A stretch of DNA of 64,000 nt from positions 4,248,501 through 4,312,500 of the forward strand of contig CP051234.1 of assembly GCA_017792465.1 (NCBI GenBank), read 5' to 3'. A model generated the notes under the pieces. That model ran no database searches. It was not told the origin of the DNA and worked only from the letters and a program-made list of their open reading frames with translations. This DNA is from Filomicrobium sp. Its GTDB lineage: Bacteria > Pseudomonadota > Alphaproteobacteria > Rhizobiales > Hyphomicrobiaceae. The translations under genes and the position numbers were made by a program. This document shows, piece after piece, positions 31,204 through 43,972 of the stretch (the first letter of the stretch is position 1; the number at the start of each line of letters is the position of its first letter).

Positions 31204-31989
31204 CTAGCTTTGCAGGCGCAGGTCATCGGGATCGTTGATGATGATGGTGTTGCGGTCGATCGAGATGCTACCGGAGCGCTGGAACCGTGACAGGGTGCTG
31301 GTCACCCATTGGCGCGTCGATCCGACGATGTTGGCAAGCTGCTCGCGGGTAATGCGACGGTCGACGATCATTTTGGAATCGTCCGATCGGCCATCGACGG
31401 ATGCCAGGATCAACAGAAGTTGGGCGAGGCGTTCGGTGACTGAACGGGTCCCGAGCATTTGCACCAGGGCCGAATAGCATTTGCCTTTGGCGACCGCTCC
31501 GTCGATCAGTGCGAGTGCAATCTTGGGAACGGTTTCTGCCAGATGGCGCAGCTTGTTGCCGGGCAGGTAGGATAGCTTTGTGCGTTCCACGGCCGTTGCC
31601 GACCAGATATGCAGGCCGCCGCCGAACACGTCAGGGCCGCCGCAGAAATGTCCGGGCGTCCAGTAGGCCAGCGTGATTTCCTTACCCGACGGACCGGCGT
31701 AGTAGGTTCTGACGCGGCCGCTTTCGATCAGGAAGATGCCGCTGTGTAAATCCCCTTGCATGAAGATCGTTTCGCCTTCCTCAACCGTGAGGCGGGAGGA
31801 GATCGCGCGCAGGCGTTCGATTTCATCGAGGCTTAAGCGGTCGAGAAACGTTGCACCTTCGTTGATCTGGCTGAGGGCTTCGGACAAGAAAACCGCAGAG
31901 GCTTTCGCTTCCGGTGGAGGGCGACCTTTGCCAGTGCGCTTTGCCGGGTGAGGGATGATTTTCGCGCTGTTGCTTGCGTGCGTTGTCAT
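31204..31989 (-). CDS. Crp/Fnr-family transcription regulator
   Basis: 261 residues. A polar N-terminal extension of about 45 residues precedes a cyclic-nucleotide-type beta-roll (EEGETIFMQGDLHSGIFLIESGRV) and a C-terminal winged helix (RITREQLANIVGSTRQWVTSTLSRFQRSGSI). Only two cysteines occur (GHFCGG, GKCYS), so it lacks the N-terminal Fe-S cysteine cluster of Fnr; it may sense another signal. Its ATG overlaps the stop of the cytochrome gene upstream by 4 bp, so it is translationally coupled and is the last gene of the cluster that begins at 38228. Possibly it regulates this operon. Confidence 0.85.
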   Translation of the reverse strand: MTTHASNSAKIIPHPAKRTGKGRPPPEAKASAVFLSEALSQINEGATFLDRLSLDEIERLRAISSRLTVEEGETIFMQGDLHSGIFLIESGRVRTYYAGPSGKEITLAYWTPGHFCGGPDVFGGGLHIWSATAVERTKLSYLPGNKLRHLAETVPKIALALIDGAVAKGKCYSALVQMLGTRSVTERLAQLLLILASVDGRSDDSKMIVDRRITREQLANIVGSTRQWVTSTLSRFQRSGSISIDRNTIIINDPDDLRLQS

Positions 31990-32708
31990 GGTTTCGACCT
32001 CGCGCGTGGAGTGGCGGCCAAGTAGGTTGCCAGGATTTCAATTTCGGATTCGTCGAGGGCGGCGGCGATCTTGTGCATCGTGCCCGTCGTGTCATTTTCG
32101 CGGTTCTTTTCGCGGAAATCGGTGAGCTGTTTTTGCAGATAATCGCGATGCTGGGCGGTGATGCGGGGCGCATACGGAGCCGCTGTGTTGGTCTCAAGAT
32201 GGCAGGTGGCGCAGGCGGGAATGCCTTTCTCGGGTTTCCCCTTCTCGATAATGTTGCGCGCCAGGGACTTTGCTTCGTCAGATAGCGGGTTATCGCCAGC
32301 ATCGGCTGGCGGCGGTGTCAGGCCCGAAAAGTAAGTGGCGACAACTGCAAATTTCTCCGGTGGAATTTCGGTGACAATGCTGGCCATCTGGCCGCCGTCG
32401 TTGCTTCTTCTGCCGGCCAGAAAATCACTGAGCTGCTTTTCGATATAGGCTTTCTTCTGGCCGGCCAGTTTGGGGAACTTGGCAGTTGCGCTAATGCCGT
32501 TGAGGCCGTGACACAATCCGCAGAGCTCTTGCGGTGGCAGGTTGTCGTAACCCAAGCCATCGGCCCAAACGGGAAGCGGCAGCAGGCCGAGCGCAATTGA
32601 CAGTGATAGTGCATAAGCGGTGGCGTGCTGGGCGTTTGGGCCCGAGTGTGCCACCGGTTGGCGTTTCTTGCCCTTATGACCGGTGATGATGTTTGTGGTT
32701 GCGCTCAT
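31986..32708 (-). CDS. Diheme cytochrome c4-like protein
   Basis: 240 residues from the ATG at 32708; a TTG at 32726 overlapping the previous stop is an alternative. A signal-like segment (AYALSLSIALGLLPLPVWA) exports it. Two heme motifs, CGLCHG and CATCHL, lie in two cytochrome c halves, each with a repeat KAYIEKQLSDF / RDYLQKQLTDF and a final helix ATYFSGL / ATYLAAT, as in cytochrome c4. It would carry electrons in the periplasm, plausibly to a terminal oxidase. Neighbours are copper-delivery proteins and a Crp-type regulator. Confidence 0.85.
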   Translation of the reverse strand: MSATTNIITGHKGKKRQPVAHSGPNAQHATAYALSLSIALGLLPLPVWADGLGYDNLPPQELCGLCHGLNGISATAKFPKLAGQKKAYIEKQLSDFLAGRRSNDGGQMASIVTEIPPEKFAVVATYFSGLTPPPADAGDNPLSDEAKSLARNIIEKGKPEKGIPACATCHLETNTAAPYAPRITAQHRDYLQKQLTDFREKNRENDTTGTMHKIAAALDESEIEILATYLAATPRARSKP

Positions 32709-32722
32709 GAGGGCCGTTTGAA

Positions 32723-33289
32723 TCAACCGCTGTGGTGCATCTTGCTGTGGTCCATCGGGCCATGGTGCATTTTGTGATCCATCTTAGGCATGGCTCCGCC
32801 TTTCTTGACTTCGGCGTCGATGGTCAGCGACGAGCCGTCGGAGAAGGTCAGCTCGATTGGCACCTTCTGTCCTAGCTTGATTGCGGATTTCGGCTTGATC
32901 ATCATCAGGTGGAGGCCACCTGGTTTGAAGGTGACGGTCTTGCCCGGAGGAACGGTAATCTGGGCGACCTTCTGCATCGTGGCGATGCCGTCGACGACCT
33001 TCGAAATATGCAATTCGACCTGTTCGTAGGCCGGGCTTGAGGCATCCGTGAGCGCGATGTCTGCCGAGCCATTATTGACAAGCGCCATGTATCCGGCGTG
33101 GACCGTCATGCCTGGAGGAGCTTCGCGGATCCAGGGTTTGGAGACAGTCACGCTTGAAGACGCAGACGCTGCAAGGATGGTTGCAAGTAAGGCAGCTGCG
33201 ACCATCAACGTGATTGTTGCAAGGCGCCATTGCGGGCTTGCGGTATCATCTGCAATCCTCGCCTTCAATCGCTGAGATGCTATTTTCAT
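32723..33289 (-). CDS. PCu(A)C copper chaperone
   Basis: 188 residues. PCu(A)C proteins carry Cu(I) in the periplasm to cytochrome oxidase. An N-terminal helix (ATITLMVAAALLATILAAS) exports or anchors it. The copper motif is present with His94, Met105, His127 and Met129 (VELHIS, ATMQKV, GGLHLMMIKPK). A second potential copper site is the Met/His-rich tail KMDHKMHHGPMDHSKMHHSG. It lies next to a SCO1-type gene, the usual partner in assembling the CuA centre. Confidence 0.9.
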   Translation of the reverse strand: MKIASQRLKARIADDTASPQWRLATITLMVAAALLATILAASASSSVTVSKPWIREAPPGMTVHAGYMALVNNGSADIALTDASSPAYEQVELHISKVVDGIATMQKVAQITVPPGKTVTFKPGGLHLMMIKPKSAIKLGQKVPIELTFSDGSSLTIDAEVKKGGAMPKMDHKMHHGPMDHSKMHHSG

Positions 33290-33324: not shown

Positions 33325-34017
33325 TTAGTTCTTGGCGGCTGCTTCGCGGGCGCTCTTGGCGATCAACGCGGCGATGAAATCGGCGGCTTCGGCTGGCTGC
33401 AAGGGGGGATTGACGCTGCCAACCCGACGCCCTTGCGGATCGATGATGGCGATGTTGGCGCTGTGGAAGACCTTGTAGCCTTCGGGGTCTTTGTCTTTGC
33501 CTTCATAGCGGACAAAGCCACCGAGGGTTTCAACGGCTTTGGAGATCTCGCTCCACTCTCCGGTTGCTCCAAGAAAATCGTCGCTGAAGTATTTGACGTA
33601 CTCTCCGATGATCTTGTGGTCCCGGTCGGGATCGACGCCGATAAAGACGACCTGCGGCTTGCGGGCAGGCGAAACACGTAGCGACAATTCCTCTTCGACG
33701 GCTGCGAGGTTCTGCAATGTGAAGGGGCAGACGTCGGGACAGTGCGTGTAACCCAGGACGATGAGAGACCATTTACCCTTGAGGTTTTCCAGGCCGAAAG
33801 CTGCTCCAGAGGCCTGCTGGAGTTTGAATTCGGATAACGACTTCGGGGTCGAATAGATGTTGGAATCGACGCGAGCCTGAGCCGGTTGAATTTGCGTTGC
33901 GCCGAAAACCGCGGCCAGCCCCAGGGCACACAAGCCGAGATTTAGGAATCGGCGTCGTGGCTGACTTGCTGGCGTTCGGCGTTTGGATGGGCCGGCATTC
34001 GGCAGAGCCTTCGACAT
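33325..34017 (-). CDS. SCO1/SenC-family protein
   Basis: 230 residues. A basic start with a twin-arginine-like RRRFLNLGL and one hydrophobic helix place it in or beyond the inner membrane. The thioredoxin-fold copper/disulfide motif is YTHCPDVCP with Cys93 and Cys97, and the distal His185 is in GYKVFHSANIAII, completing the SCO copper site. SCO proteins help load copper into cytochrome oxidase or reduce its cysteines. Tightly placed between an ABC ATPase gene (31 bp) and the PCu(A)C gene (35 bp). Confidence 0.92.
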   Translation of the reverse strand: MSKALPNAGPSKRRTPASQPRRRFLNLGLCALGLAAVFGATQIQPAQARVDSNIYSTPKSLSEFKLQQASGAAFGLENLKGKWSLIVLGYTHCPDVCPFTLQNLAAVEEELSLRVSPARKPQVVFIGVDPDRDHKIIGEYVKYFSDDFLGATGEWSEISKAVETLGGFVRYEGKDKDPEGYKVFHSANIAIIDPQGRRVGSVNPPLQPAEAADFIAALIAKSAREAAAKN

Positions 34018-34048: not shown

Positions 34049-34906
34049 TCAGGCGTTTTGCTGTTCGAAGGCCTTAAGGCTCTCTGCCCTGATCTTGTCG
34101 TGACAGAGTTTCTTGAGGCGCATGAAGTCGTCGTCCAATGCGATATCAGGGCTGCGCGGTCGCGGGAGGTCGATCTTGATGTCGGCGATGATCTTGCCGG
34201 GGCCGGCGCTCATGACGAGCACGCGGTCGCCCAGGAAGACGGCTTCGTCGATATCGTGGGTGACGAACAGCACCGTGATGCCGAACTCGGTCCAGATCTT
34301 GAGCAGGCTTTCCTGCATCATGAGGCGGGTTTGGGAATCGAGGGCGCCGAAGGGTTCGTCCATCAAAAGAACGCGTGGGTAATTGGCGAGCGCCCGCGCG
34401 ATGCCGACGCGCTGCTGCATGCCGCCGGAGAGTTCGGCAGGATAGCGGTTGGCGAATTTGGCGAGGCCGACCATCTCGATGAATGTCTGGGCGGTGGAAT
34501 CGGCGACCGTCTTGCCACGACCGAGAATGTTGGGCCCGAAAGCGACGTTCTCTTTCACGGTTTTCCAGGGAAACAGGGAATATTGCTGGAAGACCATGCC
34601 GCGGTCGGGACCGGGGCTTTTGATCTCTTCACCGTCGATCGTGACAGAGCCGGTCGTTGGCGTGACGTAGCCGGCAACGGAGTTGAGAAGCGTTGATTTC
34701 CCGCAGCCGGACGGGCCCAGGATACAGACGAATTCTCCAGGTGGGATGTCGAGAGACGTCTCGGTGACGGCTGTGTGTTGCTTGGAGCCTTTGCCGAAGG
34801 TGATCGAGACGTTCTGGATCTCGACATGGCCTTCGGAGGCGCGATGGTTCCGGGCTCGCGGTGTCTCTTCAGTCGGTTGAGGCATCGGTTTGACTAGTCC
34901 CAGCAT
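34049..34906 (-). CDS. ABC transporter ATPase, nitrate/sulfonate type
   Basis: 285 residues. It powers the importer whose permease and binding protein are encoded upstream. Walker A is GPSGCGKST, the Q-loop region is MVFQQYSLFPW, the signature is LSGGMQQRVGIARAL, Walker B is VLLMDEPFGALD, and the switch is FVTHDIDEA. These are the sequences of the SsuB/TauB/NrtD group. The ribosome-binding site GGGAGA fixes the start at 34906. About 110 bp separates it from the unknown membrane protein gene. Substrate cannot be predicted from the ATPase. Confidence 0.93.
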   Translation of the reverse strand: MLGLVKPMPQPTEETPRARNHRASEGHVEIQNVSITFGKGSKQHTAVTETSLDIPPGEFVCILGPSGCGKSTLLNSVAGYVTPTTGSVTIDGEEIKSPGPDRGMVFQQYSLFPWKTVKENVAFGPNILGRGKTVADSTAQTFIEMVGLAKFANRYPAELSGGMQQRVGIARALANYPRVLLMDEPFGALDSQTRLMMQESLLKIWTEFGITVLFVTHDIDEAVFLGDRVLVMSAGPGKIIADIKIDLPRPRSPDIALDDDFMRLKKLCHDKIRAESLKAFEQQNA

Positions 34907-35016: not shown

Positions 35017-35748
35017 TCAGTGCCCTGCCGTCAGCGGTGCGTGGCTTGAATTTGCACCGCCGGCGGGCATGAGGCTTGTCGGAGTGCGTACTGTTGTCGA
35101 ACCCGAACTGCCGGAGGTTTTTGGGTCGCGGGCGAGCATCAGGATGGCGAACGTTAGCGCCGCAAAACCGCCAAGTGCGATCCATGTTCCAAACGGCTGC
35201 AGCCAGTTGGCCATCGACACACTCATCCCGAGCATCGACAAGCCGACAATCCAGGAGGGGGTCGCACAGCAGACAACCCAGGTCATGGTCGCTCCGGTCA
35301 AAGCGACCAGACCGGTGCCGAGGCCGGATGCTGCCAGAGCCGGAGCATCGAGGCGCTGGCAGGCACGGGTGCGCTCTTTCTGGAGCGCCCACACGGTGCC
35401 GACCATGAACGCCATCAGAATGGTGACAACCATGCGCGAGGGGATGAGCTCCAGGCTCCATTCGGAAATGCCATGGCCGAAGCTCATGTTCATGTAACCG
35501 ATTTCAAGGAGCCATTCCTCAAGGATGATCGGGATCATATCCGACCATGATGGCGTCGACTTGATGATGGTGGCGACATTGCCGAACCAATTGTAGCCGG
35601 TCATGTAGTTCGGCCAGTTGCCGAAGCGATAAACCATGCTTAGGAGCAGCGCGATGTAGTAGAAGACGGTGAAGCCGACAGTTATGGCAAGCACCCCGCG
35701 CCAATGCCGCGAAATTGCATCGCTGATGCGTGTTCGAATTCCTGTCAT
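35017..35748 (-). CDS. Unknown membrane protein inside ABC operon
   Basis: 243 residues from the ATG at 35748, which follows GGAGAAAGC and overlaps the permease stop by 4 bp; the frame is open to 35832. About four or five membrane helices are seen: VLAITVGFTVFYYIALLLSM, a mid segment MVVTILMAFMVGTVWAL, LGTGLVALTGATMTWVVCC, and LGGFAALTFAILMLA. It is not a second transporter permease: the EAA loop is missing. A Cys-Cys pair in TWVVCCATPSW stands out. The C-terminal tail is Ser/Thr/Gly-rich. I do not recognise the family. Coupling to the permease implies it belongs to the transporter. Confidence 0.7.
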   Translation of the reverse strand: MTGIRTRISDAISRHWRGVLAITVGFTVFYYIALLLSMVYRFGNWPNYMTGYNWFGNVATIIKSTPSWSDMIPIILEEWLLEIGYMNMSFGHGISEWSLELIPSRMVVTILMAFMVGTVWALQKERTRACQRLDAPALAASGLGTGLVALTGATMTWVVCCATPSWIVGLSMLGMSVSMANWLQPFGTWIALGGFAALTFAILMLARDPKTSGSSGSTTVRTPTSLMPAGGANSSHAPLTAGH

Positions 35749-36710
35749 CGAGCTTTCTCCTGCCATTTCAGGAAGGGTCTGGTTGCAAGGCGCACGGCGT
35801 AAGTCGAGCCGGTGCCGAGCAGGCCGATGCACAACATGCCGACGACGATGTCGGGGTAGTTGATGAGCGAGTAGGCGTTCCAGGTGAAGTAACCGATGCC
35901 GTACTGGCCGGAGATGATTTCACCCGCGAGCAGCGAGAACCACGAGACGCCCATGCCGACGGCGAGACCGGTTGCGATACTCGGCAGGGCTGCCGGCAGG
36001 ACGACATGGCGGAAGATCTGGGTTTGGCGTGCGCCAAGTGATCGCGCGGCCCGGATCAGGACCTCAGGGGTCTGCTCGACGCCGTGCATCGTGTTGAGAA
36101 TGATCGGGAAGAGTGCCCCCAAGAACGTGATGTAGATGATGGAGGCTTCTTCGGTGGGCCACATCAAAATGGCGAGCGGGATCCATGCGACGGCCGGGAT
36201 CGGGCGCAGGATCTCGATGTAGGGCATCAAGATGTCGTTCGCGAGCTTGGATCGGCCCATGATAAGGCCCAATCCGATGCCGATGGCGACGGCAAATGCG
36301 TAGCCGATAATGATGCGCTGCATGCTCACCAGGATATGGATGTAGAATTCCGTGCCCGAGATTTGCGCAACAAACGCGTTCCAGACCTTGAGCGGTTCGG
36401 GAACGTTTTCGAAGTTGATGTAGAAGTTGAGGTTTGCGGTCGTTGCCCAGTGCCAGGCCAGGACGCCAACTGCGAGTGCTGCAATTCGGATCGACCATCT
36501 GACGAGATGTTCCGATTGAAGCAGGTTCGCGAGTTGGAAGGATTTAGCGGTTTCTGCGGGTTGATCTGTGTTGCCGGGATGATCGGAGCTTTCCGCGGAC
36601 GCCGGTTGCAGACCCTGGGCTGTTGTCTCCTCGCCGTCTCCTCGGGCCTCTTGGGAAGGATCGAGATTGCCGGATTTTGGCATTTCAATGATTGCGCCTT
36701 GGGCCGCCAT
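35745..36710 (-). CDS. ABC transporter permease, nitrate/sulfonate type
   Basis: 321 residues from the ATG at 36710 with GGAG upstream (the frame is open to 36806). A polar N-terminal tail of about 90 residues, rich in Glu, Pro and Ser, precedes six membrane helices. The cytoplasmic EAA-type loop that contacts the ATPase is EVLIRAARSLGARQTQIFRHVVLP. RPIPAVAWIPLAILMW is typical of the SsuC/TauC/NrtB group. It would form the channel for the solute captured by the 36852-38228 protein. Confidence 0.9.
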   Translation of the reverse strand: MAAQGAIIEMPKSGNLDPSQEARGDGEETTAQGLQPASAESSDHPGNTDQPAETAKSFQLANLLQSEHLVRWSIRIAALAVGVLAWHWATTANLNFYINFENVPEPLKVWNAFVAQISGTEFYIHILVSMQRIIIGYAFAVAIGIGLGLIMGRSKLANDILMPYIEILRPIPAVAWIPLAILMWPTEEASIIYITFLGALFPIILNTMHGVEQTPEVLIRAARSLGARQTQIFRHVVLPAALPSIATGLAVGMGVSWFSLLAGEIISGQYGIGYFTWNAYSLINYPDIVVGMLCIGLLGTGSTYAVRLATRPFLKWQEKAR

Positions 36711-36851
36711 GGAGCACTCCAGGATGTTGCGGTCGGTATTTGGACTTGTGAAGTTCGTGGGATTTAGGTCCGGTGCCGGACCAGCGATGAAATCGCGGCC
36801 CGGCACCTGATGACGTTCCCGCTTGCTGGTTTGCGGGTGAGGCTCAAGAGA

Positions 36852-38228
36852 TCAGCTTGCGACGGAAGCCAATGCGCCTTCGAAGTCGATGACCTTGCCT
36901 TTTACACTGGCAGCGTACTTTTCGGCTTCTTTCTTGCGAAGGAAGGCGGCGTACTTGCCGTCAGGAGCCTGCACGTAGACGGCGGTCTTGCCGAAGAGCT
37001 TCAGGCCTGTCTCTTTGTCGTAGACGTAGGTGGCGTTGAGCTTCTGGCCGACAGCGTTGAACTCGGCGACAGCTTTGAGGAATTCGCCCAAGCTTGGATA
37101 GGTCGAGATGCCTTCGCGGGCATGCCAGATTTCCATCGGAAGTTTGGCGTTGGCTTCGACAGGATCGACGATCGTTGCCTTCGCTTTTTCGTAGTCTGCG
37201 CCGAGTTCCTTGAAGGCTGCTTTGACATACTTCTCGGTGATCCAGGCGTCGAAATCGAGCGGTGGAATGGCTTTCTCGCGGACCAGGACGCCGTGGTTGA
37301 ATTTGAGAGCTTCAACCCATTTGTCCTTGATGCTTGGTTCGAGCGTGAGGTGACCGCCTTTGGAGAAGTAGAGGTAGAGAACTTCTTTCTCGACGCCGGT
37401 CCATTTCTCCATCATTTCGGTTGCTTTGATCGGATCGGCTTCGATCCATTTTCCGGCTTCGTAGACCGCCTTGATGAAAGCCGTTACGACCTCTGGGTAT
37501 TTTTCTGCAAAGTCCTGGCGGACGACGACGCCGTGCAAGTAAGGAACGCCGGCTTCGCTGCCGTCATAGATCTTACGGCCAGTGCCGCGGAATTCCATGA
37601 GTTCCGACCAGGGGCAGAAGTCGGAGTGAGCGTCGATCTTGCCGGCTGCGATGTTCGCTGCACCGACAGCAGGGCTCTGGTTCTTGAGCTGGATTTTGGA
37701 AACCGGCAGTTTTTCGTCTTGCAGGGCTTTGAGAAGCATGCCCCATGCGGCGCTGCCAACAGGGGTTGAAACCGATTTGCCTTCGAGTTGCGAGAATTCG
37801 TAGATGTCGGACTTGACTGGTACGACGATCGCGTTGCCGGAGCCCTTAAGGTTATAGCCGGTGCCTGCGACGTAGAGTGTGCGCAGAGAGTCGGTTGCCT
37901 GGAATTTGGCGCCGTTGACGATCAGCGGGTAGTCACCCATGACGCCGAAGTTCAGTTTGTTGGCCAGCATCTGGTTGGTGATGGGGCCGCCGGAGGAATA
38001 GTCACTCCAGCTGATGTCGTATTTGACGTCTTTGTATTTGCCGTCTTTGGGAAGGTGCTTTTCGAGAAGCTTCAGCTCCTTGATCACGATCCCGGCGGTA
38101 TAGGTGTCGGTACACATACTTTGGTGACCAACAGCGATCCTGATTGTTTCGGCGGCTTGGAGGGTAGTTGCCGAGGCTGCGGTGAGGATCGCGGCGGCTG
38201 CGAGGGTGGACCTCAATTTGTTGCGCAT
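36852..38228 (-). CDS. ABC substrate-binding protein with NosL-like tail
   Basis: 458 residues, longer than the roughly 320 of SsuA/TauA. A signal peptide (STLAAAAILTAASATTLQAA) is followed by an NMT1/NrtA-like binding domain: IRIAVGHQSMCTDTYTAG, SGGPITNQMLANKLNFGVMG, GSAAWGMLLKAL. The last 80 or so residues are different: YVYDKETGLKLFGKTAVYV, then GKYAAFLRKKEAEKYAASV and GKVIDFEGAL, which resemble the C-terminus of NosL, a periplasmic copper protein of nitrous oxide reductase maturation. The tail match is from pattern memory. A sigma-54 promoter lies upstream. Confidence 0.85.
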   Translation of the reverse strand: MRNKLRSTLAAAAILTAASATTLQAAETIRIAVGHQSMCTDTYTAGIVIKELKLLEKHLPKDGKYKDVKYDISWSDYSSGGPITNQMLANKLNFGVMGDYPLIVNGAKFQATDSLRTLYVAGTGYNLKGSGNAIVVPVKSDIYEFSQLEGKSVSTPVGSAAWGMLLKALQDEKLPVSKIQLKNQSPAVGAANIAAGKIDAHSDFCPWSELMEFRGTGRKIYDGSEAGVPYLHGVVVRQDFAEKYPEVVTAFIKAVYEAGKWIEADPIKATEMMEKWTGVEKEVLYLYFSKGGHLTLEPSIKDKWVEALKFNHGVLVREKAIPPLDFDAWITEKYVKAAFKELGADYEKAKATIVDPVEANAKLPMEIWHAREGISTYPSLGEFLKAVAEFNAVGQKLNATYVYDKETGLKLFGKTAVYVQAPDGKYAAFLRKKEAEKYAASVKGKVIDFEGALASVAS

Positions 38229-38281
38229 TGACTGCTCCCTTGGCTCAATGGCTTCTTGTCTTAAAGGACGTTAAGGAAGCG

Positions 38282-38296
38282 GCAATGGCCGTGCCA
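38282..38296 (-). promoter_or_regulatory. Sigma-54 promoter
   Basis: On the minus strand the sequence is TGGCACGGCCATTGC, matching the RpoN consensus TGGCACG-N4-TTGC with the invariant GG and GC ten bases apart. The predicted start of transcription is near 38271, giving a leader of about 43 nt before the ATG at 38228. Confidence 0.7.
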
Positions 38297-38488
38297 AATC
38301 AGTAGTCAGTGTCTCGGATTTTTCATAAGGCATTGGTTTTGAATGTTTAATCTATGTCGCTTTGCAATATTAATTCGATGACTGATGTCGAGTTTAAGGT
38401 TGTTGGCTGGGCGCAATGATTAGCTTTTAGGCAGCGCTTTTCAGGTGCGCAAAATTGAGATAGGACAAGGTGGTAAGGTAACTTTTGG

Positions 38489-38505
38489 CCTAATCACCGA
38501 TTAGG
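38489..38505. promoter_or_regulatory. Inverted repeat, possible operator or enhancer site
   Basis: CCTAATC-ACC-GATTAGG, a perfect 7-bp inverted repeat with a 3-bp centre. It lies about 190 bp upstream of the sigma-54 site, the usual distance for an activator site, and about 130 bp after the GntR gene. No T run follows, so a terminator is less likely. Confidence 0.45.
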
Positions 38506-38634
38506 TCGAAAGGCGCGTTCGGCTGGCTTTCGCAAAGGCAAAACCACGTCCGAAATCTAGCGCTCCAGCCGCGGAGAATTCCAGGCAGAGATCGCCAGCC
38601 AATCAGGTTGTTTCGTGAGAGAATGGGTCGGGGT

Positions 38635-39390
38635 TCACCACCGACCGAGGCGGGCTTTGAAGGCCATTGCGTCAAGACGCGAATAGATGAGCTCGAAGGC
38701 CAACGGGCGGCCGTTGTTGTCGAACGTTAGGCGGCGCAGGCGCAACAAAGGCTTGCCGGGTTCGGCGCCTAGAAATTTGGCATGTTCGGGTGACGCGTCG
38801 TCGACATCCAGAACAACGTCGGCATAGCCAAGCTCCAATCCCATGCGCTGTTCCATCAGCAAGAAGACGTCTTCCTGACCGAGGTTGAGCACCATCAGCT
38901 TGCGGCCGATGTCGATGGGGTAATAGCTGATGTCGAGAGATATGGAGGTTCCGCCGGCCATGCGCGTGCGGCCGATGCGGGTGACAAGAGAGCCGTTGTC
39001 GACTTGCAGCGCTTCGGTGACGAGCGGTTCGGGGACGACCTCGATGAGCTCCACGACATTCGAGTGTGTCTCGACGCCGAGAGGGGCCATCATTTCGCCG
39101 AAGCTCTGCAACCGTTCGAGACTTGCCGTGGCGCGGAAATGGCTGACGAAATAACCCTTGCCTCGGCGGGCTTCGACGATGCCGGTGCGGCGCAGTTCGT
39201 CGAAGGCTTGGCGCGCGGTGACGCGGCTGACACCAAACAGCTCCATGACTTCGTGTTCGCTGGGGAGCTGCTGGCCGGAGCCGAATTCACCACTCGCGAT
39301 GCGTTCCGTCAGCCAATTGCGAATGGTGATGTATTTGAGCGTGCGGCCGGGAGAGCTGACATTTTTCGCGCCTGGTTTTGGATTTGCCAT
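38635..39390 (-). CDS. GntR-family regulator, HutC/UTRA type
   Basis: 251 residues from the ATG at 39390; the frame is open to 39681 but the earlier residues do not look like protein. The N-terminal winged helix is LTERIASGEFGSGQQLPSEHEVMELFGVSRVTARQAFDELRRTG. The C-terminal effector domain is of UTRA type (RLQSFGEMMAPLG, VTRIGRTRMAGGTSISLDISYYP, LRRLTFDNNGRPLAFELIYSR). Such proteins repress catabolic or uptake genes until a small ligand binds. It is between the HEAT gene and the transporter genes, so it may control one or both. Confidence 0.9.
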   Translation of the reverse strand: MANPKPGAKNVSSPGRTLKYITIRNWLTERIASGEFGSGQQLPSEHEVMELFGVSRVTARQAFDELRRTGIVEARRGKGYFVSHFRATASLERLQSFGEMMAPLGVETHSNVVELIEVVPEPLVTEALQVDNGSLVTRIGRTRMAGGTSISLDISYYPIDIGRKLMVLNLGQEDVFLLMEQRMGLELGYADVVLDVDDASPEHAKFLGAEPGKPLLRLRRLTFDNNGRPLAFELIYSRLDAMAFKARLGRW

Positions 39391-39442: not shown

Positions 39443-40432
39443 TCAGCTGGTTGCCGCCGGGTCGCTGTCCTTATTGGCAGCGATGCGATCGAGTGCCCAA
39501 CGGACGTTCTTGCGGACGTCGGGATCGGGATCGTCGGCGTGCGGTTCGAGGTATTTTGCGCCTTCGGGCGATGCGATCTCGCCGAGTGCTGCGGCGGCTT
39601 CCTTGCGCAGGTTAGGGGCTTGATCGTGGTTGAGGCCCGGAGCGATGAGGTCGACGGCGTCGGTGACGTGGAGTTGGCCAAGGCTGCGGGTGGCTTTCCA
39701 GCGGACCTGCCAGAACTCGTCGGTCATGATGTCCATCAGCGCTTTGGCCGCCTCTGGTTTCTCTTCGCCCTTGCCGAGCGTTTCGGCGGCGATCTCGCGA
39801 ACCTGCCAATCCTTGTCGCCGGTGGCCTGGATGATCGTATCCTGTGCCGTCTTGAGTTGTGAGAACGACAACGCACTGACTGCGGCGCGGCGAACGGATG
39901 CGTCGTCGTCCTGGGTTGCCGATTTCAGTGCCGGAATGGCTTCTTCCATTTTCAGGAAGCCGATGACACCGACGGCTTCGGCTCGAACCTGGGCTTCCTT
40001 ATCGCCGAGTGCGCCGAGTGCGACTTTGAGTGTATCGGGGCGGCGCAGCTCTTTCAGGGCCCGCAAGGCTGAAGCGCGGACGAATGCGTTTTCGTTGGCG
40101 ACCAGTGGCAGGAGCGGATCGGCGGATGCGGGGTCTTTGAGTTCGGCAGCGGAGATCGAGGCGGCCTTGGCAACTTCGACTTCCGGATCGAGAAGTGCTT
40201 TGGCGAGCGCTGCGGCTGCCTCAGGTCCATCGTATTCACCCAGCGAAACAGCGACCTGAGTGCGCACGCCGGCATCGGTGTCGTCGAGGCTCTTCAAAAG
40301 CAGGGCGATGGCGCCAGCTTCACCAAAATCGCCAAGCTCCATGACGGCGACCCGGCGTTCGCCCGGATCCGCGGAGGCAAGGCGATCCTCGAAATCTTCA
40401 AGTTCGCCATAAGCTTCAAATAATTCTGACAT
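39443..40432 (-). CDS. HEAT-repeat (PBS-lyase type) protein
   Basis: 329 residues from MSELFEAYGELEDFEDRL at 40432. The whole protein is a string of about nine HEAT-like repeats of roughly 31 residues, for example VRASALRALKELRRPDTLKV, VRAEAVGVIGFLKMEEAIPA, VRRAAVSALSFSQLK and VRWKATRSLGQL. Such solenoids act as protein-binding scaffolds, and close relatives attach or protect bilins or metal centres. No signal peptide is seen, so it is cytoplasmic. It follows the ferredoxin gene by 35 bp and is likely made with it and the flavoprotein. A scaffold or maturation role is inference. Confidence 0.85.
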   Translation of the reverse strand: MSELFEAYGELEDFEDRLASADPGERRVAVMELGDFGEAGAIALLLKSLDDTDAGVRTQVAVSLGEYDGPEAAAALAKALLDPEVEVAKAASISAAELKDPASADPLLPLVANENAFVRASALRALKELRRPDTLKVALGALGDKEAQVRAEAVGVIGFLKMEEAIPALKSATQDDDASVRRAAVSALSFSQLKTAQDTIIQATGDKDWQVREIAAETLGKGEEKPEAAKALMDIMTDEFWQVRWKATRSLGQLHVTDAVDLIAPGLNHDQAPNLRKEAAAALGEIASPEGAKYLEPHADDPDPDVRKNVRWALDRIAANKDSDPAATS

Positions 40433-40467
40433 TGGGTGCGCCCTCGCGGATCTGAGCCTTGTTGGTC

Positions 40468-40701
40468 TTATTTCAACAAATAGGGAATGTTGACGGTGAC
40501 TGCTTGCGTCGGGCAGTCGGCCGCGCAAGGCATGCAGTACCAGCATTCATCATAGGCCATATAGGCTTTGTTGGTCATTTCGCTAATGCGCAGGACGTCG
40601 AGAGGGCACACATCGACACAGACGCGGCAGCCTTTTTCGGCAATGCACTTGTCGTTGTCGACGACAACAGGGACGGTACTTGGTTGGGTTGCTAGAGGCA
40701 T
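40468..40701 (-). CDS. AprB-like 2x[4Fe-4S] ferredoxin
   Basis: 77 residues. Eight cysteines form two cluster motifs: Cys19-X5-Cys25-X2-Cys28-X3-Cys32-Pro and Cys53-X2-Cys56-X2-Cys59-X3-Cys63-Pro. The segment MAYDECWYCMPCAADCP resembles AprB, the electron-carrying subunit of APS reductase. The long C-terminal tail by which AprB wraps around AprA is missing, and the protein is about half the usual length. It probably passes electrons to or from the flavoprotein encoded upstream, with 147 bp of non-coding DNA between the genes. Confidence 0.88.
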   Translation of the reverse strand: MPLATQPSTVPVVVDNDKCIAEKGCRVCVDVCPLDVLRISEMTNKAYMAYDECWYCMPCAADCPTQAVTVNIPYLLK

Positions 40702-40848
40702 ACGGGCTTCTCCGTTTTCCTTGTCATATGTTTATCACGACCGCGTTCGGGCAAGGACATTGGAAATCGCTTGCGATGGCTCTTGCGGTCCTGGTGCGCC
40801 GGGGAGGTTGCGCCGTTCCCCGAGCGCTCTTGATCGTGAAGGCTGCTG

Positions 40849-42591
40849 TTACTCGCCGGCGGCGACGCGCTGTTTGTCGTAGAGATCTTTTTCGTCCTCT
40901 GCGATCGGCACGACGTAATCCTCGATGGCCTTCTTTTCGGACGCCATCTTGCCGTCGACCTTGCCAAGGAGCGTGTGGCAGAACCAGTTCTCGTTGTCCT
41001 TTTCAGGATAGTCGGTGCGCAGGTGGTAAAGGCCCCAGCGGCTTTCGGTTCGGTAGAGCGAAGCGTGGGCGGCCATGTCGGCGCAGTCGAGGATCGAGGC
41101 GGCTTCCAGTGAACGCATCAGTTCGTGAGCGTTGCGGACCATCATGCCCTGTTCGAGATCCTCGCGGACTTCTGCGAAACGCGCCTGACCGAGTTCGAAC
41201 TTCTTGGTGACTTTCGGCGGCTGCAGGTAGTCGTTCACGAGGCGGCGTGTCTTATACTCGATCTGGTTTGGCGGGATGCCGTCTTCGCGTTTCGTCGGCG
41301 CCATGACGCGTTCTTTTTCGACAGCGACGTCCGCGGCGTCGAAGTCGGCCCAGTCGACTTCATTGCAATACTCGGCGGCGTGTTCGCCGGCGACTGCGCC
41401 GTTGGTGAAGGCACCGAGCATGTAGTTGTGCGGAACGCTTGCCATATCGCCGGCTGCGTATAGGCCAGGGACGGTGGTTCGCGCGAAGTCATCGACGAAG
41501 ACGCCCGAAGCACTGTGGCCGGAACAGAAACCGATTTCGGAGATGTGCATCTCGACCATGTCTTTGGCGTAGTCGGTCTTGCGGTTTTCGTGGAAGTCAC
41601 CGCGGGTTGGACGCTCGACGTTGTGCAAGGTCTTCGCGATTTCTGCGACGGTCTTTTCGTGCAGGTGGTTCATCTTGAGGAAGACCGGGCCCTTGCCGGA
41701 CTGCAGCTCGTTGAAGAACTCCAGCATCATCTGGCCGGACCAGTAATCGCATTCGATAAAGCGCTCGCCCTTGTTGTTGGCGGTGTAGGCTCCGAACGGT
41801 CCGGCGACGTAGGCGCAGGCCGGTCCGTTGTAATCCTTGATGAGCGGGTTGATCTGGAAGCACTCGAGGTTCGCGAGCTTGGCGCCGGCGTGATAGGCCA
41901 TGGCGTAGCCGTCGCCCGAGTTGGCGGCGTTTTCATAGGTGCCGTAGAGGTAGCCGGACGTTGGCAGGCCGAGGCGGCCGGCAGCCCCCATACACAAGAT
42001 CACAGCCTTGGCGCGGATGACGAGAAATTCGCCGTTGCGCGTGTTGACGCCGATGGCGCCGGCAACGCGACCGTCTTTGGCGGTGAGGAGCCGGGTCGCC
42101 ATGTAGCGGTTGGAAATCAGCAGGCGGGCGCGGCGCAGCTGACGGTAAAGCGCGCGCTTGACGGTTTCGCCGTTGGGCATCGGCAGAACGTAGGTACCGA
42201 TGTGGTGCACCTTCTTGACGTCGAAGTCGCCGTTTTCGTTTTTCAGAAAGCGGATGCCGAAGCTGTCGAGTTCCTGGATGATGTCGTAGCAGTTCTCGGC
42301 ATACTTCAAGACCGGCTTCTGATCGACGATGCCGTCGTTGGCGATGGTGATTTCCTTGACGTATTGCTCGGGCGTCGCATAGCCGGGGATGACCGCGTTG
42401 TTGAGGCCGTCCATACCCATCGAAATAGCGCCGGACCGTTTGACGTTGGCCTTTTCGAGAAGAATGACCTTGGCGTCAGGGTTCTTCTGCTTGGCCTTCA
42501 GCGCCGCCATCGGCCCTGCCGTGCCGCCTCCGATGACGAGCACATCGCATTTGACTTCAGACATATCGTCAAGGATCGCATCCATAGTCAT
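40849..42591 (-). CDS. AprA/fumarate-reductase-like flavoprotein
   Basis: 580 residues. The FAD-binding start is VKCDVLVIGGGTAGPMAA, and the active-site-side segment KRSGAISMGMDGLNN carries RSGA, the AprA form, where succinate dehydrogenase has RSHT with covalent FAD. Later come VPGLYAAGDMASVPHNYMLG and, in the C-terminal helical domain, ESRWGLYHLRTDYPEKDNENW, again AprA-like. It is shorter than true AprA (usually above 600). The start lies 3 bp after the DUF971 stop, so the two are coupled. The reaction is unknown; annotation as APS reductase would be over-reading. Confidence 0.88.
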   Translation of the reverse strand: MTMDAILDDMSEVKCDVLVIGGGTAGPMAALKAKQKNPDAKVILLEKANVKRSGAISMGMDGLNNAVIPGYATPEQYVKEITIANDGIVDQKPVLKYAENCYDIIQELDSFGIRFLKNENGDFDVKKVHHIGTYVLPMPNGETVKRALYRQLRRARLLISNRYMATRLLTAKDGRVAGAIGVNTRNGEFLVIRAKAVILCMGAAGRLGLPTSGYLYGTYENAANSGDGYAMAYHAGAKLANLECFQINPLIKDYNGPACAYVAGPFGAYTANNKGERFIECDYWSGQMMLEFFNELQSGKGPVFLKMNHLHEKTVAEIAKTLHNVERPTRGDFHENRKTDYAKDMVEMHISEIGFCSGHSASGVFVDDFARTTVPGLYAAGDMASVPHNYMLGAFTNGAVAGEHAAEYCNEVDWADFDAADVAVEKERVMAPTKREDGIPPNQIEYKTRRLVNDYLQPPKVTKKFELGQARFAEVREDLEQGMMVRNAHELMRSLEAASILDCADMAAHASLYRTESRWGLYHLRTDYPEKDNENWFCHTLLGKVDGKMASEKKAIEDYVVPIAEDEKDLYDKQRVAAGE

Positions 42592-42594
42592 CTC

Positions 42595-42987
42595 TTAGTG
42601 TCCTTCTTGGTGGAATTCGTTCGCGCGGTCGGTCTCGTCGACGCGGGGTGTCAGAAAGGCTTCGAGGGTCGGACGTGCGGCAAGCTTCGCGAGGTAGCCC
42701 CAGGGATAGACGCCGCGGTCGTGACCGTCGGAAAATGCAAGGTTCAAGGCGTAATTCCCGATTGGGAACGCGTTCGTGAGGGACAGCGCGGGATCGCCGG
42801 AAGACGTTCTTCCATCGAGCCGACGACGCCGTCCTGCCGCAGAGGGGCAGTTGCTCCATAAGGTCTCGGCATCGACTTTCGTTGAGCTGCCGTCCTGCCA
42901 GTCGAGCACGAGCCAGCGTCCATTCGACGAAAGGCTGAACGATCGTGGTGGCTTGGCCGCAAAATCTGGGGTGTCTGGTATACTCAT
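42595..42987 (-). CDS. DUF971 protein
   Basis: 130 residues from MSIPDTPDFAAKPP at 42987; the frame is open to 43026. The DUF971 fold is recognised by SLSSNGRWLVLDWQDGSS, a CP near the first helix (TLWSNCPSAAGRRRR), FPIGNYALNLAFSDGHDRG and VYPWGYL. The same fold forms the N-terminal domain of gamma-butyrobetaine hydroxylases, and stand-alone copies often lie beside Fe-S maturation or redox genes. Its coupling to the flavoprotein points to a helper role in this redox unit. It is the first gene of the minus-strand cluster. Confidence 0.85.
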   Translation of the reverse strand: MSIPDTPDFAAKPPRSFSLSSNGRWLVLDWQDGSSTKVDAETLWSNCPSAAGRRRRLDGRTSSGDPALSLTNAFPIGNYALNLAFSDGHDRGVYPWGYLAKLAARPTLEAFLTPRVDETDRANEFHQEGH

Positions 42988-43099
42988 GCCGGCAGCATCG
43001 CGACCTAGACGGAAGGGCGAAAGCAACTAATTGTCATTCGTCATTCGCAACACGGAATTGCTGTGAAATTGTCTCCCGTAGTGGAAGTCTTTTTGGTTG

Positions 43100-43115
43100 C
43101 GTCAATTTGTTGACG
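43100..43115. promoter_or_regulatory. Palindrome in divergent promoter region
   Basis: CGTCAA-TTTG-TTGACG, 6-bp arms and a 4-bp centre, between the DUF971 and ferredoxin-NADP reductase genes. It is placed to control both, but the arms are in the opposite order to a Crp/Fnr box. Confidence 0.4.
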
Positions 43116-43189
43116 GACAGCCCCAGAGCGTTTGTGGGAATAACGCGCAACAGCAATACTTATCCTTACGTCCACCGGGAAATTCGATC

Positions 43190-43972
43190 ATGAGCAGCTT
43201 CAACGGTTTTAACGAAGAGACAGTCCTCGACATTAAGCACTGGACCGACACGCTATTCAGTTTCCGAACGACGCGTGCCGATTCATTCAGGTATGAGAAC
43301 GGTCAGTTCACGATGATCGGGCTGGAAGTCGAAGGTAAACCGTTGGTGCGGGCTTACTCCATGGTTAGCCCGAACTACGATGAGACGCTTGAATGGTTTT
43401 CGATCAAGGTACCGGACGGGCCTTTGACGTCGCGTTTGCAGCACATCAAGGAAGGCGACCGGATACTCATCAGCAAAAAGCCTGTTGGCACGCTGATTAT
43501 TGATAACCTGGAGCCGGGCAAGACTTTGTATCTTCTCAGCACCGGGACGGGGCTAGCGCCGTTCATGTCGATTATTCGCGACCCCAACACCTACGAGCGC
43601 TTCGAGCGGGTCGTTTTGGTGCACGGTTGCCGGACGGTTGCCGAACTCGCCTATGGAGAGCTCATTACCAAGGAATTGCCGGAGCATGAGTACATCGGCG
43701 AGGATGTGCGTGAGAAACTGATCTATTATCCGACGGTGACGCGCGAGCCGTTCGTCAACAGAGGGCGGGTCACCGATCTCATCGAATCGGGGAAAATTTT
43801 CAGCGATCTCGGGTTGCCGGAGCTGTCGGTCGAGAACGACCGCGTGATGCTGTGCGGCAATCCCGACCTGATCACCGACATGCGCAAAATTCTCGAGGAT
43901 CGCGGCTTTGTCGAGGGCACCAGTGGGAAGCCTGCGACTTATGTCATCGAGAAGGCGTTTGTTGAGAAATAA
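43190..43972 (+). CDS. fpr: Ferredoxin-NADP reductase
   Basis: 260 residues from the ATG at 43190 (the frame is open to 43097). Fpr moves electrons between NADPH and ferredoxin or flavodoxin. The FAD motif is RAYSMVSPNY, preceded by FRYENGQFTMIGL; the NADP-binding part shows LLSTGTGLAPFMSIIRDP, VLVHGCRTVAELAY and MLCGNPDLITDM. The C-terminus YVIEKAFVEK matches the bacterial subclass. It is divergent from the flavoprotein/ferredoxin cluster and is a natural electron source for that ferredoxin, although Fpr is also widespread in general metabolism. Confidence 0.95.
   Translation: MSSFNGFNEETVLDIKHWTDTLFSFRTTRADSFRYENGQFTMIGLEVEGKPLVRAYSMVSPNYDETLEWFSIKVPDGPLTSRLQHIKEGDRILISKKPVGTLIIDNLEPGKTLYLLSTGTGLAPFMSIIRDPNTYERFERVVLVHGCRTVAELAYGELITKELPEHEYIGEDVREKLIYYPTVTREPFVNRGRVTDLIESGKIFSDLGLPELSVENDRVMLCGNPDLITDMRKILEDRGFVEGTSGKPATYVIEKAFVEK

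Follow-up and report, generated by a model that had tools for sequence, protein, structure and literature searches.

A probable sigma-54 promoter of an importer/copper operon in Filomicrobium sp. and its association with a GntR/UTRA gene and paired operator-like half-sites

Within the 64-kb stretch of Filomicrobium sp. DNA that we analysed (the window), the element TGGCACGGCCATTGC is, judged from its sequence and conservation, very probably the sigma-54 promoter of an operon for a solute importer and copper proteins. Across Proteobacteria the site recurs almost exclusively in clusters that include a gene for a GntR-family regulator. We propose that NtrC drives sigma-54 transcription of the operon and that the local GntR protein blocks it until an inducer arrives, in a manner similar to hut control, and we assign this reading as a whole a probability of about 0.7. 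The sequence-only reading that had singled out the promoter mentioned neither the link between the site and the GntR gene of the cluster nor the two operator-like sites. What is new here is this conserved pairing with GntR, together with the two half-sites.

The element TGGCACGGCCATTGC has the GG of the -24 region and the GC of the -12 region separated by exactly ten bases and is oriented toward the downstream open reading frame. It is an exact match to TGGCACN5TTGC, and the only one in the window, which bears out the spacing and extended consensus described by the sequence-only reading. The 53 nt counted between the element and the ATG of the binding-protein gene at 38228 on the minus strand agree within one base with the 54 bp given there, where no strand was named. 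Transcription would start at about 38270, some 12 nt past the GC. Exact matches numbered 15 in the 4.47-Mb genome (one contig), compared to 6 for a reversed control pattern. Some of these precede nifH and the genes for the [NiFe] hydrogenase small subunit and a hydrogenase maturation protease, and others precede genes for an NrtA-like binding protein, two DctP binding proteins and a symporter, all of which are typical sigma-54 targets; the remaining matches lie within genes. The genome encodes one RpoN and eight strong AAA+ sigma-54 activators, among which NtrC and NifA score above curated cut-offs. When two mismatches were allowed, the window contained 70 matches against 70.6 expected. Since such matches are no commoner than chance, the motif alone is modest evidence, and it is conservation that decides.

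In a second genome of the same genus (G005), the ortholog is 87% identical and TGGCACGCGCATTGC is present at the aligned place inside a largely diverged upstream region. Scanning some 85,000 species yielded 80 related loci, making 82 with the window and G005. In 49 of the 82, a site that agrees with the consensus in 8 or more of its 10 bases lies no more than 200 bp before the start; the opposite strand gave 2 and shuffled sequences 1.7. With at least 9 of 10 bases, the count was 41, compared to 0 on the opposite strand and 0.2 in shuffles. The distance from site to start was 43-78 bp in most loci, and none of the 21 Rhodobacteraceae loci had a sigma-54 site. The features of the promoter region and operon are listed in Table 1.

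Table 1. Positions of the promoter region, operon and regulator features in the window
Feature	Position	Strand	Family, match or remark
Sigma-54 -24/-12 promoter element TGGCACGGCCATTGC (predicted)	38282..38296	minus (38296→38282)	Exact consensus; conserved in G005 and 49/82 related loci
Operator-like half-site TCTTGTCTTA, downstream copy	38254..38263	plus	8/10 to ACTTGTATTA; about +8 to +17 from predicted start; place and orientation conserved; putative GntR site
Operator-like half-site CCTTGTCCTA, upstream copy	38461..38470	minus	7/10 to ACTTGTATTA, 9/10 in G005; 174 bp above -24; position and orientation conserved; putative GntR site
NtrC-like activator dyad CGCACCTGAAAAGCGCT, candidate enhancer	38433..38449	minus	7 of 8 core bases of GCAC-N7-GTGC; enriched in relatives; alone not significant in the window
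Inverted repeat CCTAATC-ACC-GATTAGG	38489..38505	.	192 bp from the promoter element; not conserved in G005; probably not an enhancer
GntR/UTRA regulator, proposed ligand-responsive repressor	38635..39390	minus	PF00392 + PF07702; co-occurs with the sigma-54 site; start chosen at 39390
SsuA/TauA-like solute-binding protein with C-terminal extension, first operon gene	36852..38228	minus	
Importer permease	35745..36806	minus	PF00528
Conserved membrane protein of no known family	35017..35754	minus	No match in Pfam, NCBIfam or PDB; conserved across 33 aligned loci
Importer ATPase	34049..34906	minus	PF00005
SCO1/SenC copper chaperone	33325..34017	minus	PF02630
PCuAC copper chaperone	32723..33289	minus	PF04314
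Cytochrome c with two haem domains	31986..32726	minus	
Crp/Fnr-type regulator, last operon gene	31204..31989	minus	

The association of the site with the GntR gene was tabulated from the gene order, which was read in all loci and counted only where the flavoprotein gene was visible. Both traits were present in 43 loci and neither in 26, and 3 loci were discordant (Fisher test, 3.5e-16, with kinship among loci left uncorrected). One discordant locus (L109) has GntR without the site, and its upstream DNA ends at 84 bp; the other two (L063, with a weak site at -187, and L105) have the site without GntR. On a tree of the binding protein, the traits shift jointly in about 4 of 5 independent contrasts, and in no contrast do they shift oppositely (sign test, p 0.125), a result short of significance because shared ancestry leaves only about five such contrasts. 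Extra genomes of the same order contributed nine further loci plus G247, which is the same as L030 and was already in the set. Among these loci, 2 of the 3 with GntR have perfect sites and the third a degenerate one (TGGCATGAATATTGA), and no site was found in any of the 7 with a Crp/Fnr gene and no GntR. All seven of these site-less genomes encode RpoN; therefore, the site is not absent for lack of the sigma factor, and loss of RpoN was ruled out as the cause. A Crp/Fnr-linked form of the cluster, with neither GntR nor the sigma-54 site, was observed in L113, L114, L115 and L138-L144 (rhizobial and Methylobacterium plasmids and other Hyphomicrobiales). This form has the flavoprotein, ferredoxin, HEAT and importer genes in common with the window cluster but differs in that a Crp/Fnr gene within the cluster replaces GntR and the sigma-54 site is absent.

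An unprompted search for dyads covered the 200 bp preceding the promoter in each of 40 de-duplicated loci. The leading signals were ACAAGT/ACTTGT, which occurred in 31 of the 40 loci compared to 4.0 expected, and TGC-N11-GCA (16 loci, 1.8 expected). Sites resembling ACTTGTATTA in at least 8 of 10 bases were found upstream in 37/40 loci (6.9 expected) and no more than 60 bp past the -12 in 31/40 (2.8 expected). Loci without a sigma-54 site had them at the chance level (6/27, 5.9 expected). The upstream half-site has a single orientation in 37 of 37 loci, at a median of 174 bp above the -24, and the downstream half-site has the opposite orientation in 30 of 31; in the Stappiaceae (Roseibium) loci the downstream copy is poor. 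With one mismatch allowed, ACTTGTMYTA matched the window only twice, at the two half-sites in Table 1. The GntR protein is likely to act at these half-sites. Helical phasing between the two half-sites was tested across loci and was not significant, and looping of the DNA between them enters our model as a conjecture for this reason. An apparent phasing of the downstream half-site was traced to two related groups, at +19 (mostly Alphaproteobacteria) and +29 (mostly Gammaproteobacteria), and was rejected.

The NtrC consensus is TGCAC-N7-GTGCA. A GCAC-N7-GTGC dyad matching at least 7 of 8 bases was found above the promoter in 24 of the 40 de-duplicated loci compared to 2.6 expected, and in 3 of the 27 loci without a sigma-54 site. 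The same dyad with a spacing of 6 occurred in 7 loci (3.1 expected) and with a spacing of 8 in 2 (2.5 expected); spacings of 9 and 3 were moderately raised. This enriched dyad agrees with the NtrC consensus, making it a candidate NtrC site, and an NtrC-like signal (TGC-N11-GCA) also came out of the unprompted search. Because the dyad is enriched in relatives, the window copy is imperfect and the half-sites in G005 and L097 are spaced 8 rather than 7, we regard NtrC as the best candidate for the activator, with the balance tilting slightly toward it. The nitrogen or other RpoN-linked control anticipated by the sequence-only reading divides into two parts: sigma-54 control is strongly supported by the conservation and position of the site, by the RpoN and activators of the genome and by its nifH and hydrogenase sites, while nitrogen control of the operon is plausible, given the enriched NtrC-like dyad and the encoded NtrC. 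The perfect inverted repeat that had been noted about 190 bp upstream does exist, but its proposed role as an enhancer was rejected because the repeat is not conserved in G005.

As we infer from the DNA and its relatives, RNA polymerase with RpoN would wait at the -24/-12 element until an AAA+ activator acts; the most likely one is NtrC, bound to the GCAC-N7-GTGC dyad about 100-155 bp above the -24. The GntR/UTRA protein from the adjacent gene would bind both inverted half-sites, the upstream one at about 174 bp from the -24 and the downstream one directly past the start, and would block, and perhaps loop, the promoter until its ligand arrives. The operon would then be on only when nitrogen shortage (or another NtrC-type signal) coincides with its own inducer. 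A bolder version, which we consider speculative and rather unlikely as a whole, would place the activator site between two inverted operators, both belonging to a co-inherited GntR/UTRA protein that loops out the enhancer, with regulator and promoter type gained or lost jointly across Proteobacteria. A conserved uptake and redox cluster would in this way be switched between sigma-54/GntR control and other, Crp/Fnr-linked control.

In Pseudomonas, the GntR/UTRA protein HutC binds TGTA-N2-TACA over the hutU sigma-54 site, and NtrC activates the hut genes (PMC12977541). The hutU and hutF promoters (PMC12977541) are like the promoter proposed here in having a sigma-54 site, a GntR/UTRA regulator with a TGTA-type operator and NtrC-type activation, the operator and the activation being putative in the window. 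They differ in that hut has one palindrome over the promoter, whereas the window has two separated inverted half-sites. Since HutC is also of the GntR/UTRA class and has its operator at a sigma-54 promoter, the assignment of the half-sites to GntR fits the regulator class. By analogy, the mechanism probably works like hut control; the operon and regulator are not themselves hut members, as the regulator scores far below the HutC cut-off (84 vs 220 bits) and the operon and cluster genes examined include no hut genes. NtrC-regulated nitrate/urea importers of Proteobacteria (PMC5343134) likewise combine an importer of the nitrate/sulfonate class with a sigma-54 promoter and an NtrC-like dyad. In contrast to these, the window has a binding protein closer to SsuA/TauA, copper chaperones, a flavoprotein-ferredoxin-HEAT module and an extra GntR layer. 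A motif guess becomes a testable two-signal switch on a cluster widespread in Alpha-, Beta- and Gammaproteobacteria. The paired sites tell exactly where to footprint and mutate, and the ligand of GntR would be a clue to which compound is transported. The cluster is also a case from nature in which promoter type and local regulator appear to be exchanged as a pair.

Other explanations bear on different parts of this model. It is very improbable that TGGCACGGCCATTGC is a chance match and that the operon uses another promoter: exact matches do occur inside genes and two-mismatch matches show no excess in the window, but G005 and 49 of the 82 loci have the site in the corresponding position, and a search of 38100-38700 found no sigma-70-like promoter. 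A more serious contender, though not the one we favour, is a sigma-54 promoter served by an activator other than NtrC (NifA, NtrX or another of the eight) that senses sulfur, carbon, redox or copper, with a solute unlinked to nitrogen. The number of activators encoded, the imperfect NtrC-like site of the window and a binding-protein fold that points to sulfonates are consistent with such an activator. Against it, the sole enriched activator-like dyad is the NtrC-like one with a spacing of 7, the NifA pattern was not enriched and was rejected as the activator site, and a BLAST search with six of the genome's own eight activators detected no activator gene within 9 kb of the cluster in related loci.

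The role of the local GntR protein could also be read differently, with the half-sites bound by another protein or with GntR acting as an activator and not a repressor. The half-sites and the sigma-54 site are found together, so that co-occurrence by itself cannot assign the half-sites to GntR. We nevertheless consider this alternative unlikely, as the ACTTGTATTA half-sites track the presence of the cluster's GntR gene, strong matches are confined almost entirely to this promoter in the loci checked, the half-site resembles the HutC operator and the copy directly past the transcription start fits a repressor.

The eight genes from 38228 down to 31204 on the minus strand would form one transcript. 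In structure, the binding-protein model best matched SsuA and TauA, known binders of sulfonates and taurine; the sequence of the protein scored below the curated cut-offs for both (120 vs 163.5 bits for SsuA and 81.7 vs 304 bits for TauA). The suggestion that the imported solute is a nitrogen source is unproven; because SsuA/TauA are the nearest matches to the binding-protein fold, a solute containing sulfur, or both nitrogen and sulfur, is at least as likely. A solute with both elements would reconcile NtrC-type control with the fold. Beyond the SsuA-like fold, the C-terminus of the binding protein (36852-37121, minus) has a weak resemblance to NosL (Pfam E 0.13; 0.037 in L033). A NosL-like extension would fit the downstream copper genes, but the match is too weak for us to assign such a domain. 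The membrane protein of no known family (region 35017-35832, minus) has conserved MNYDYGxGISEW and WVVCCATPSW motifs and a model with a mean pLDDT of 89, and a structure search against PDB folds returned no match. This protein may handle copper, since it is found mostly in loci that also have SCO1/PCuAC.

Upstream of the operon, positions 39443-43972 encode a DUF971-like protein, a flavoprotein resembling adenylylsulfate/fumarate reductases, a 4Fe-4S ferredoxin, HEAT repeats and a ferredoxin-NADP reductase. The DUF971-like, flavoprotein, ferredoxin, HEAT-repeat and GntR genes are on the same strand as the operon and are conserved as a unit; the loci of many relatives add a further ferredoxin, a ferredoxin-NADP reductase and a YeiH-like transporter. 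The make-up of this redox module suggests that an imported compound, perhaps one with sulfur, is reduced. Our literature search found no paper naming the cluster and no functional study of the cluster or the redox module. Sulfonate transporters respond in the RpoN/NifA transcriptomes of Paraburkholderia phymatum, and none of these could be tied to this cluster. Elsewhere in the Filomicrobium genome, at about 1.3229 Mb (L016 with L004), the gene of another binding protein, NMT1/NrtA-like, has an exact sigma-54 site 70 nt ahead of the start codon and adjoins an activator gene (open frame of 677 aa). This makes a second sigma-54 importer whose activator is encoded locally.
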